This document shows, piece after piece, positions 44,243 through 56,086 of a DNA stretch of 64,000 nucleotides (positions are counted from its first letter, which is position 1; the number at the start of each line of letters is the position of its first letter). This DNA comes from Cryobacterium breve (GTDB lineage: Bacteria; Actinomycetota; Actinomycetes; Actinomycetales; Microbacteriaceae): the NCBI RefSeq assembly GCF_004402375.1, contig NZ_SOGJ01000034.1, forward strand, positions 1 to 64,000, given 5' to 3'. Made by a program: the position numbers and the translations under genes. The notes under the pieces were generated by a model that had not been told where the DNA came from, ran no database searches, and saw only the letters and a list, made by a program, of their open reading frames with translations.

Positions 44243-44604
44243 TCGCCGCCGTCAGCTGGTGCACGAACTTCACAGATCGAACCTGGGTGCCCGGCATGGC
44301 GACCCTCTGTTGACCAAGCGCGTAGATGACGACCAGAGGTCGGTGCCGCCGGGAAGAGAATGCACCCCGACTGGGACAACGCCCACGCCCCAACGCTGAT
44401 GCCGGCCCGCGCCGAAGGCTGGGGGCGACGAGCGGCCAACCCAGTTCGTGCCGCTCGGCCCTGGTCCTCGGTGTGCCTGCTCTGCCCCTCGATTTGGGGG
44501 CAGGGATTGCGGAAGTTGGGACTTTCTCACTGGTTTCTCGCCGACCAGGGCTGATAGGTTCCTTCTAGGTGACCTACGGGTCGCCAGAGTGACGGAATTC
44601 ACGT
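44243..44604. other. leader region before the riboswitch
   Basis: About 360 bases without a supported gene. It must contain the promoter for the riboswitch transcript; a short inverted repeat GGTGACC-TAC-GGGTCGCC lies near 44567-44584, but no convincing -35/-10 pair was identified. Confidence 0.45.
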
Positions 44605-44682
44605 CAGTCGAAAAGGCACACCCGTTGTAAGGCGGGGTCGCAAAGGCACGGAACCCATCGGGTTAGCCGGCTTACCGAATGA
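44605..44682 (+). ncRNA. cyclic-di-GMP-I (GEMM-I) riboswitch aptamer
   Basis: The conserved core is directly visible: GGCACACC (44615-44622), a CCCG/CGGG stem closed by a GUAA GNRA-type tetraloop (44621-44636), the signature GTCGCAAAG (44637-44645), an AACCC-ATC-GGGTT stem, and GGTTAGCCGGCTTACCGAA (44661-44679), which includes the tetraloop-receptor side. These match the GEMM-I consensus for c-di-GMP binding. A ribosome site AAGGAA and a short ORF start 20 bases after the aptamer, so translation control is likely. A diguanylate cyclase gene lies 10 kb away. Confidence 0.9.
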
Positions 44683-44698
44683 AAAGGAACCGTCCCAC

Positions 44699-44806
44699 AT
44701 GAACTTCACCTCCCCCGAGGCCGACCGCAGATTCGGCCGTCCAGGCCTGTCTTCGTCGCCTCTAGGCGTGGTGTACAAGCCTCCGTCTCGTCGTCCCCTT
44801 GGGTAG
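44699..44806 (+). CDS. 35-codon ORF directly under the c-di-GMP riboswitch
   Basis: Starts at the ATG after AAGGAA (nine-base spacing) and reads MNFTSPEADRRFGRPGLSSS then PLGVVYKPPSRRPLG, stopping at 44806. Basic and proline-rich, with no signal peptide or membrane segment. It may be a small functional protein, a leader peptide, or the remnant of a longer target gene. Its position alone makes it the likely regulated product. No relative is recognised. Confidence 0.5.
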   Translation: MNFTSPEADRRFGRPGLSSSPLGVVYKPPSRRPLG

Positions 44807-44866
44807 GCACGCGACTGAAACGGTGGAAGCCGGGCGAGATTAGGGATTTCGTCCTGATATGGCATT

Positions 44867-44903
44867 GCGATCGGGGATTGATTCGGGTTCGATCTCCGAT
44901 CGC
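44867..44903 (+). terminator. hairpin downstream of the riboswitch ORF
   Basis: GCGATCGGGGAT pairs with ATCTCCGATCGC (44892-44903) with one mismatch and a 13-base loop. It lies 60 bases after the short ORF and could end or stabilise that transcript. No T-tract follows. Confidence 0.45.
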
Positions 44904-45076
44904 ATGCTTGCCTCACCGCCGGTTCAGGCACCTCCTTCGGTACCTACCTCGGGCCAGGCTCCGGCACTGCTTGAACCTCTGCGTTCCTCTGTGGTGAAGC
45001 CACGTTTGTGTTCCTGGCGGACATCCGCCGCGTAGCGGCCGACGTTCGCGCTCATCATGGCGACCTCGCCAGGCGC

Positions 45077-45165
45077 GGAACCGATTCGACGGAGATTCTC
45101 GCGGAAATGCGGTTTCCAGGGCTGTGCGAGGCCGTTTCCGACAAAATCTCCGTCGAATTCGTTCT
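45077..45165. repeat. palindromic element family B, intergenic copy near ppsA
   Basis: Left arm ATTCGACGGAGATT (from 45084) and right arm AAAATCTCCGTCGAATTC (45143-45160), extending outward through GAAC/GTTC with mismatches. Same arms as the copy at 25315-25394. It ends about 130 bases before the PEP synthase start. Confidence 0.8.
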
Positions 45166-45295
45166 GGGAACGGCCCGACTAGCCGGGACATCCGCCGCGC
45201 AGTACGGTGCCACCACCGGAAGCAGCCTTCTCGGGCAGGGCGAGAGCCTGCGGTGAGCAGCCAGGGCTACAGAACTGACAAGGGGTGGAAGATCA

Positions 45296-47686
<2,391 letters not shown>

Positions 47687-54412: not shown

Positions 54413-56086
54413 GTGAACTCAGACCAGGACATCGCACCTGAACCAAAGACAGTGCCGACTATGGAATCAATACTGGAACCAGCGATTGACGTGCTCCTCG
54501 CGGAGTGCGAGCAGTCGAGCGCGAACGGGCGCCATCTCGACGGTGTCGGGCAGGCCGAGGCGGTTTTGGCGCGCCCGGGTGCTACGAAGCGGCAGCAGGC
54601 GCATGCGCGGGAACTGCTGGCACTGCATCGGCTGCGCCTCGGCGACTACGAGGCATCCGTTCAACAGGGCTTGCTGGCGTTGGAGTACCTCGACGGCAGC
54701 GGAGACCTGATCCGGCAGTCCACGGTGAACTGCACCCTGGTGCTGGCGTACTCCGACACCGGGCTGTACGAGCAGGCGCTGCGCCACGTTCTGGTCGCGT
54801 TGGAAACGGCTCGGGTGAGCGGCAGCGCATTGGCCGAGTTCTGGGCGTTGAGCCGCTCCTCGATGGTGCACGAGGGAATGGGCGAGTCGGAGCGGGCGCT
54901 GGAACTGGGGCAGCAGGCGTTGGCGATGTCCCGCACCATCGACGACCCGGCGGCCCGGTTCGTTGGGCTCAACAACCTCGGCGACACCTCTCTGACACAG
55001 GCTCAGACTCTGCGTGCCCGGGGCGTTGACGCCGGGCCTCTCCTCAAGCAGGCACTGCTGCTCGTGCGCGAGGCTGTGTCCGTGGCCCATGCCCAGGGGC
55101 ACAGCTTCTACGAGAGCATCGCCCGCACCAACCTGGTCAGCATCCTGATCGAGCTCGGCGAGCATGCCGAGGCCCGTGAGCAGGCCAGTCGAGCCCGGCG
55201 CCTGGCGAAGGCGCACGGTTTTCGCTCCCTCGAGGAGAACAACGACGCGCAGCTGGCCGAGGTCGCCCGCGCCGAGGGGCGCCTCGATGACGCGACCGAG
55301 ATGATGAACGCGCAGTTGCTGGTCGCCGCGCTGGGGGACGACCCGGCCCTGCACATCCTGTTGCACCGCTCGCTGTACGAGATGAATAAGGAGGCCGGCC
55401 GGTTCGAGCAGGCGCTCCTGCACCATGAGAAGTTGCACGCCCTGATGCTGAAGCGAACAACCGATACCGCCGGCATCCAGTCCCAGATGTTGATCAACAC
55501 CCTGGGGATCGAGCAGGCACGTCACGAGGCGGAGCGGTCGCAACGGGATGCGGAGCGGCTGCGCAGCCGTGCCGCCGAACTGGATCTCCAGGCCAATACC
55601 GACCCGCTGACCCGGCTGCCGAACCGCCGGGCCCTCGACCGCGAGTTGCCGCCGTTGATGGGCCTCTCTCGCGACCGCCGACAGCCGCTCTGCGTGGCAA
55701 TGATCGACATGGACCATTTCAAGCGCGTCAACGATGATCACGGACACGCCACAGGCGACCAGGTGCTGAATGCCATGGCCAGCCTGTTGCGGGCCGTCAC
55801 CCGGGAGCGCGACATGGCCGTGCGGGTGGGCGGGGAGGAGTTCCTGCTGGTCTTTGCCGACACCACCCTGGAACAGGCCGAGCTCGTCTGCGGCCGTCTG
55901 CTCGCGTCCGTGCGCGACTACCATTGGGGCGCGCTGGCACCGCGCCTGGCCTGTACGGTCAGCGTGGGCGTGGCCGAGCTGATGCCCGGCGAGACCGTTG
56001 TCGGTTGGCTTGCCCGCGCCGATGCCGCCCTCTACGCGGCCAAGGACGCCGGCCGCGACCAGCTCGCCACGGCAGCAGTCGCGTAG
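54413..56086 (+). CDS. TPR-containing diguanylate cyclase (GGDEF)
   Basis: 557 residues. Residues ~40-370 form TPR-like helical repeats (ALEYLDGSGDL, ALRHVLVALETARVSGS, LVSILIELGEHAEAREQAS). A coiled-coil signalling helix leads to the GGDEF domain at ~395-550. The active site is GGEEF (473-477), with the substrate-binding DMDHFKRVNDDHGHATGDQ and an RERD inhibitory I-site just upstream, so it should make c-di-GMP and be product-inhibited. No membrane segment; cytoplasmic. Such TPR-GGDEF proteins are common in Microbacteriaceae and Cellulomonas-like bacteria. GTG start with GGGGGA. Confidence 0.92.
   Translation: MNSDQDIAPEPKTVPTMESILEPAIDVLLAECEQSSANGRHLDGVGQAEAVLARPGATKRQQAHARELLALHRLRLGDYEASVQQGLLALEYLDGSGDLIRQSTVNCTLVLAYSDTGLYEQALRHVLVALETARVSGSALAEFWALSRSSMVHEGMGESERALELGQQALAMSRTIDDPAARFVGLNNLGDTSLTQAQTLRARGVDAGPLLKQALLLVREAVSVAHAQGHSFYESIARTNLVSILIELGEHAEAREQASRARRLAKAHGFRSLEENNDAQLAEVARAEGRLDDATEMMNAQLLVAALGDDPALHILLHRSLYEMNKEAGRFEQALLHHEKLHALMLKRTTDTAGIQSQMLINTLGIEQARHEAERSQRDAERLRSRAAELDLQANTDPLTRLPNRRALDRELPPLMGLSRDRRQPLCVAMIDMDHFKRVNDDHGHATGDQVLNAMASLLRAVTRERDMAVRVGGEEFLLVFADTTLEQAELVCGRLLASVRDYHWGALAPRLACTVSVGVAELMPGETVVGWLARADAALYAAKDAGRDQLATAAVA

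Follow-up and report, generated by a model that had tools for sequence, protein, structure and literature searches.

The window, i.e., the whole 64,000-nt stretch of Cryobacterium breve DNA that was analysed, contains only one Rfam family above its gathering score (cmscan, Rfam 15). This is a c-di-GMP-I riboswitch aptamer (RF01051) at positions 44605–44679 of the plus strand, matched over the full model (1–87) with 59.2 bits against a cut-off of 35 (E = 4.9e-9). The original prediction had called a GEMM-I aptamer here from the letters and had named RF01051 as the model for comparison; the score lies well over the cut-off. The aptamer is followed by a short open reading frame (ORF) and by three hairpins. 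The features of the region are as follows:

44552–44560 (+): extended −10-like promoter motif TGnTAnnTT (consensus match only)
44568–44585 (+): 5′ hairpin GGUGACC-UACG-GGUCGCC before the aptamer (7-bp stem in orthologous leaders)
44605–44679 (+): c-di-GMP-I (GEMM-I) riboswitch aptamer, CACA/GUCG sequence subtype (RF01051, 59.2 bits; subtype counts)
44684–44688 (+): Shine-Dalgarno-like AAGGA of the leader ORF (sequence)
44699–44806 (+): leader ORF of 35 codons starting with ATG, TAG stop at 44804–44806 in the loop of hairpin A (ORF list)
44780–44908 (+): three-hairpin module, paralogue of an accD-linked RNA of the Microbacteriaceae (searches with models R1 and R2; pair counts)
44780–44826 (+): hairpin A, loop CCCCUUGGGUAGGCAC (fold; inner five pairs counted)
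44832–44854 (+): hairpin B, counted with 8 pairs (4 with two-sided changes) and the loop UUAGGGA
44866–44904 (+): hairpin C, terminator-like stem of 16 bp (two-sided changes at 4 of the 16), loop UUCGGGU
44969–45079 (−): remnant of a convergent vWA-like gene (tblastn, 73% over 37 aa, E = 4e-12)
45296–47686 (+): PEP-synthase/PPDK-like gene, called ppsA (Pfam)

The aptamer carries AGGCAC, CGCAAAG, and UUACCG, which we take to hold the ligand-contact letters G20, A47, and C92 (Vc2 numbering). The c-di-GMP-I-GGC class (RF03167) was rejected based on its score (57.5 bits, cut-off 59) and on the letters, the diagnostic G of its consensus CGCGAA being absent from the CGCAAA of the window; RF03167 gave a better E-value than RF01051 when short stretches were scanned. 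We regard the aptamer as genuine, and the genome encodes domains for making c-di-GMP. The single GG[DE][DE]F motif of the window (GGEEF at 55829, with the RxxD I-site-like RERD upstream) agrees with the GGDEF cyclase with an I-site that had been noted before, and the genome has 12 GGDEF matches, one of them in the window at 55592–56062. A second c-di-GMP-I aptamer of the same genome is located at C30:40832–40906 (−), upstream of a 284-codon frame. The aptamer together with the start region of the ORF (44605–44720) folded no better than shuffled sequences (z 0.4), and no expression-platform switch or alternative fold of the ribosome site was found for the leader.

Across the genus, RF01051 gave 49 matches (E ≤ 0.001, one below the curated score) in 20 of the 57 Cryobacterium genomes, and 9 of 199 genomes of a family sample were matched. 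The 61 aptamer loci that were read comprise the 49 from Cryobacterium and 12 from other genera. Genes following the aptamers in the genus include those for GGDEF-EAL proteins (Pfam for L055, visible motif for the others), and many short ORFs with an M-[SN]-F start also follow. An ATG or GTG lies 11–25 nt 3′ of the aptamer in 48 of the 49 genus loci, a weak statistic given a chance level of about 40% (own estimate); since this spacing is kept whatever the gene, translational control is the mode proposed below. Two positions of the aptamer covary across the 61 loci and define sequence subtypes, i.e., GCACA with GUCG at 39 loci, all in Cryobacterium, GCAAA with GACG or GGCG at 21, and GCATA with GACG at the remaining one (L034); the subtypes of L057 and L060 were assigned by eye. 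MSFPF-like ORF starts were seen after the aptamers of L018, L019, L025–L027, L029, L045, L047, L050, and L060, and all of these short ORFs except those of L050 and L060 (eight of ten, by eye) share the motif W-F-G-x-x-P-A-V.

Leaders could be aligned in ten genomes, from the promoter-like motif through hairpin C. The letters of TGnTAnnTT are invariant across the ten, the motif occurs at most 75 nt upstream of the aptamer in 18 of the 49 genus loci, and transcription probably starts near 44567. A 7-bp 5′ stem was found at the same position in all ten orthologous leaders, with paired changes between their two groups; it was taken as the longest stem within 60 nt, without a chance control. An anti-Shine-Dalgarno sequence (GGUUCCUU, near 44558) was dismissed on inspection by eye, since group 2 does not have it and it overlaps the promoter-like motif.

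The 35-codon ORF with a ribosome site described earlier is present, with AAGGA about 10 nt 5′ of its ATG and the ATG 20 nt past the aptamer. The start and about 25 codons are common to the C. breve genome and four close relatives, in which the ORF has 35, 35, 35, 40, and 47 codons as a result of frameshifts; five more distant genomes have 50, 50, 50, 55, and 55 codons. The pN/pS was 1.16 over 25 codons in the former five genomes and 0.82 over 26 codons in the second group (five genomes), and no Pfam match was obtained. Purifying selection on the frame was thus not seen in the ten genomes (pN/pS about 1, unstable lengths), and the leader peptide appears, by these alignments, not to be conserved. 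The original prediction had proposed frame conservation among relatives as a test, for which the start and the first 25 codons stay in frame and the remainder does not. Since the stop codon lies inside the loop of hairpin A, the ORF simply runs on into the structured module.

The last 129 nt of the ten leaders form a gap-free alignment. The structure counted on this tail has 29 pairs, with 96.2% of 261 cells paired and two-sided changes at 9 of the 29 pairs. None of 500 shuffles, which ignore relatedness, scored as high on four of five measures; the fifth, further pair types, was ordinary (282 of 500 shuffles as high). Sliding of the partners abolishes the pairing. Hairpin C folds with −27 kcal/mol (z −5.7 against shuffles), the stem of hairpin A alone was no more stable than shuffles (z −0.4), and hairpin A extends and gains paired changes if group 2 is shifted by one base (by eye). 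A long U-run is absent from hairpin C, for which reason termination at it is an assumption. Part of a tRNA was rejected as an identity for the tail, as ARAGORN finds no tRNA in the window. CsrA-type GGA loops seem unlikely, inspection by eye having shown no GGA in loop A or loop C of the window copy; loop B contains GGGA.

Model R1 was built from the ten leader tails and matched all 57 Cryobacterium genomes at E ≤ 0.01, ten of which had supplied it. Of 30 further R1 copies that were read, 27 sit downstream of accD, whose identity was confirmed for examples by the Pfam carboxyl transferase and epsilon subunit; the partial copies L129, L165, and L167 were excluded from the alignment (A3), so that the resulting model R2 comprises the 27 accD-downstream copies and no aptamer-linked copy. 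The R2 structure has two-sided changes at 21 of 45 pairs, and none of 500 shuffles was as high on any of five measures. R2 matches the leader tail in the window with 50.9 bits (E = 1.1e-11 in its own genome, E = 7e-13 in the 61 aptamer loci); eleven of the 61 loci were matched at E ≤ 3e-12 and two weakly, at E about 2e-4 and 3e-4.

In a sample of the Microbacteriaceae, R2 matched 107 of 150 genomes at E ≤ 0.01 (61 of 85 genera; 43 genomes without a match) and 97 of the 150 at E ≤ 1e-10; the ten genomes between the two thresholds may represent chance. In a sample of the order (E ≤ 0.001), 19 of 198 genomes were matched, those above 30 bits in Microbacteriaceae only, with four family genomes left without a match. 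An RNA of this kind outside the family was rejected, the matches in nine genomes there reaching at most 29 bits and being taken as chance hairpins. An accD-like frame lies upstream of each of the 25 best R2 copies, all of which have the loops GACUAGGGUAAG and UUCGGGUU. Both loops are changed in the window copy, which has CUUGGGUAGG for CUAGGGUAAG in hairpin A and UUAGGGA for UUCGGGU in hairpin B; loop A is identical in the copy of G012. By these comparisons, the leader tail in the window is a paralogue, not an orthologue, of the accD-linked RNA, and with its altered loops A and B it may have lost or changed its function.

The accD-linked RNA itself measures about 160 nt, with four hairpins, near-invariant loops, and promoter-like and terminator-like ends; the copy of the C. 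breve genome is L157:2475–2626 (G000:C20:74711–74862). A second locus with a c-di-GMP-I aptamer followed by a copy of this RNA (54 bits) is L044:2733–2862 in G012, where the downstream gene encodes a WxL-domain surface protein (26 bits, cut-off 25). No known Rfam family accounts for this RNA in the sequences scanned: nothing was found at the gathering score in ten loci (one being the decayed L129), and the E-value mode returned only sub-cut-off miRNA families for one canonical copy and only RF03167 plus chance miRNA for 44550–45300 of the window. In the part of the literature that was covered, no work on the accD-linked RNA or on Cryobacterium riboswitches was recognised.

The same leader, with aptamer, short ORF, and three hairpins, precedes MCP, CheW, and CheA genes by about 370 nt in five relatives (G012, G020, G030, G040, G048). 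Pfam confirmed MCP in G030, G020, and G040, CheW in G030, G020, and G048, CheA and CheB in G030, G020, G048, and G012, and CheR in G012; CheW matches were at the expected places in all five. In G048, the gene caller extends the first frame after the leader upstream to +228, and the gene map of G040 was read as far as CheA. No CheW domain was found in the C. breve genome. CheW was above the cut-off in 8 of 57 Cryobacterium genomes, and the five genomes with an orphan leader (C. breve, G003, G008, G009, G027) are not among these. Two other readings offered by the original prediction therefore came close, i.e., a leader peptide, since the ORF precedes the chemotaxis genes of relatives as a leader ORF, and a decayed target, since these genes are missing here; the absent genes themselves, the 5′ hairpin, the three-hairpin module, and the continuation of the ORF into a paralogous copy of a structured RNA spread across the Microbacteriaceae had escaped it. 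Flagellin was matched at least once in 51 of the 57 genomes (twice in C. breve) against CheW in 8, so most Cryobacterium may be flagellated yet lack classical chemotaxis.

Debris of the operon persists in G027, where a CheW fragment of 25 aa (92%) was found and DNA matching G030 jumps from the MCP start to CheW, the MCP interior missing. In the accD tree, G027 joins the che-positive G030 (97/95), C. breve joins G009 (98/96), and G003 falls inside the second che-positive group (88/91 for the group). With this topology, and if leader plus operon is the ancestral state, at least three operon losses follow. The ppsA tree has two groups (100/100 each) with unsupported order inside the first, and by itself would imply at least two. 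Both are single-gene trees (accD of 15 genomes, ppsA of 13, the ppsA of G051, G015, G007, and G002 not included). In G051, the aptamer directly precedes the MCP gene without hairpins, and no c-di-GMP-I match was found in the 1.3–1.9 kb read upstream of the MCP gene in G023 and G032; going by these layouts, the ORF and the hairpins may have been inserted after the switch and ahead of its client, and, by G023 and G032, these che genes do not all come with the switch.

The next intact long gene on the same strand is ppsA, about 390 nt past hairpin C. In the five che-positive relatives it shares contig and strand with the leader and lies 9.7–17.8 kb further on, and in C. breve, G003, G008, and G009 it follows the leader after 0.6–2.6 kb, with no che genes in between in these four (tblastn); the contig of G027 ends first. 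A convergent vWA-like gene follows the leader in G008 and G009 (in G009, the protein matched Pfam vWA models below their cut-offs). In G039, the 3′ hairpins adjoin a decayed aptamer immediately ahead of ppsA (L129), an arrangement recognised as a relic of the same leader.

For this locus, a signal-gated small RNA or a well-kept relic is likelier than a switch that serves a tiny protein. It is highly improbable that the product is a 35-residue protein under c-di-GMP control: the good ribosome site, the ATG at its usual distance, and the recurrence of M-[SN]-F starts after several other c-di-GMP-I aptamers of the genus speak for it, but both pN/pS values, the frameshifted lengths, and the missing Pfam family count against it, and the original prediction's new c-di-GMP-controlled small protein fell with the same pN/pS and lengths in the ten genomes. 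It is scarcely more probable that ppsA came under control of the leader once the operon was lost and the vWA-like gene had decayed. The position of ppsA would suit this; however, the strong hairpin C intervenes, and in G008 and G009 the convergent gene separates the two.

A greater, though still minor, share of the probability goes to a pure relic, i.e., the client operon was lost recently, no function is left, and the good state reflects little time. The missing CheW, the debris in G027, and the drift of the leader ORF fit this account, as does the decayed leader of G039, by which leader decay does occur and which counts against our best explanation. On the other side, the operon would have been lost at least three times by the accD tree and at least twice by the ppsA tree alone, every orphan leader has kept the promoter-like motif and the 5′ hairpin, pairing is preserved in 96% of the tail cells across the ten leaders, and the five orphan aptamers (59.2, 59.1, 58.7, 54.2, and 53.3 bits by RF01051) are no weaker than the five chemotaxis-linked ones (58.7, 58.7, 58.7, 58.3, and 54.3 bits).

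The best explanation is a leader RNA of about 340 nt rather than an ordinary switch-plus-gene unit, although this assignment, like the model that follows, is drawn from sequence comparison. To the full model, in which a translational c-di-GMP riboswitch, its leader ORF, and the fused paralogous copy of the family-wide RNA have lost their client and persist as a stand-alone transcript, we would give an even chance. Binding of c-di-GMP would gate ribosome entry at the leader ORF. Ribosomes translating this ORF would terminate in the loop of hairpin A and thereby decide on folding of the module and continuation of transcription, i.e., by translation-coupled, possibly Rho-dependent attenuation. 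After loss of the operon, the transcript would stop at hairpin C and form a small RNA that stands alone and responds to c-di-GMP, and the leader would be retained for its RNA, not for its peptide.

Compared with known systems, the aptamer resembles other RF01051 riboswitches in exceeding the cut-off over the full model, and the locus differs from the usual ones in that no protein client was found in the C. breve genome and a leader ORF and structured module follow. Rli55 and EutX are riboswitch-controlled sRNAs with B12 as the ligand and an ANTAR-hairpin decoy; the likeness lies in a riboswitch gating a trans-acting RNA, predicted here, and the differences in their ligand and their decoy. ANTAR-target RNAs are defined, in the accessible part of PMC8164766, by two stems with hexaloops carrying A1 and G4. 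The tip of hairpin A in the canonical accD-linked RNA can be read as such a hexaloop (AGGGUA), but the loop of hairpin B has 7 nt without A1 and the window copy would read UGGGUA, so an ANTAR target was rejected, the loops not fitting the two-hexaloop rule (by eye). The pe20 Mbox of M. tuberculosis, as far as described in the available text of PMC12810186, is likewise an actinobacterial riboswitch with a small upstream ORF, which it controls directly with Rho-dependent termination; its ligand is different, and its ORF is described as highly conserved, unlike that of the Cryobacterium leader. The merRNA, which the available text of PMC3627812 places in Bdellovibrio only and proposes as a c-di-GMP store, similarly is a non-coding RNA with a c-di-GMP riboswitch and without a conserved downstream ORF, whereas the Cryobacterium RNA corresponds to a leader of chemotaxis genes and includes a paralogous copy of the family-wide RNA.

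The locus is unusual in combining an aptamer, a leader ORF, and a paralogous copy of the family-wide RNA, and in the survival of this combination without a client. It illustrates a riboswitch outliving its gene, for which the ten genomes form a natural test set, as five of them have the client and five lack it. Tentatively, and with the balance against it, a c-di-GMP riboswitch may in Cryobacterium have gained control of a paralogue of the RNA that is spread across the Microbacteriaceae; the gated copy would rival or replace the accD-linked RNA at its partner, and this function would have survived at least two to three operon losses. If true, c-di-GMP would act via a trans-acting RNA. The analysis also brings to light a structured RNA, matched in 107 of the 150 sampled Microbacteriaceae genomes and tied to c-di-GMP in one genus.
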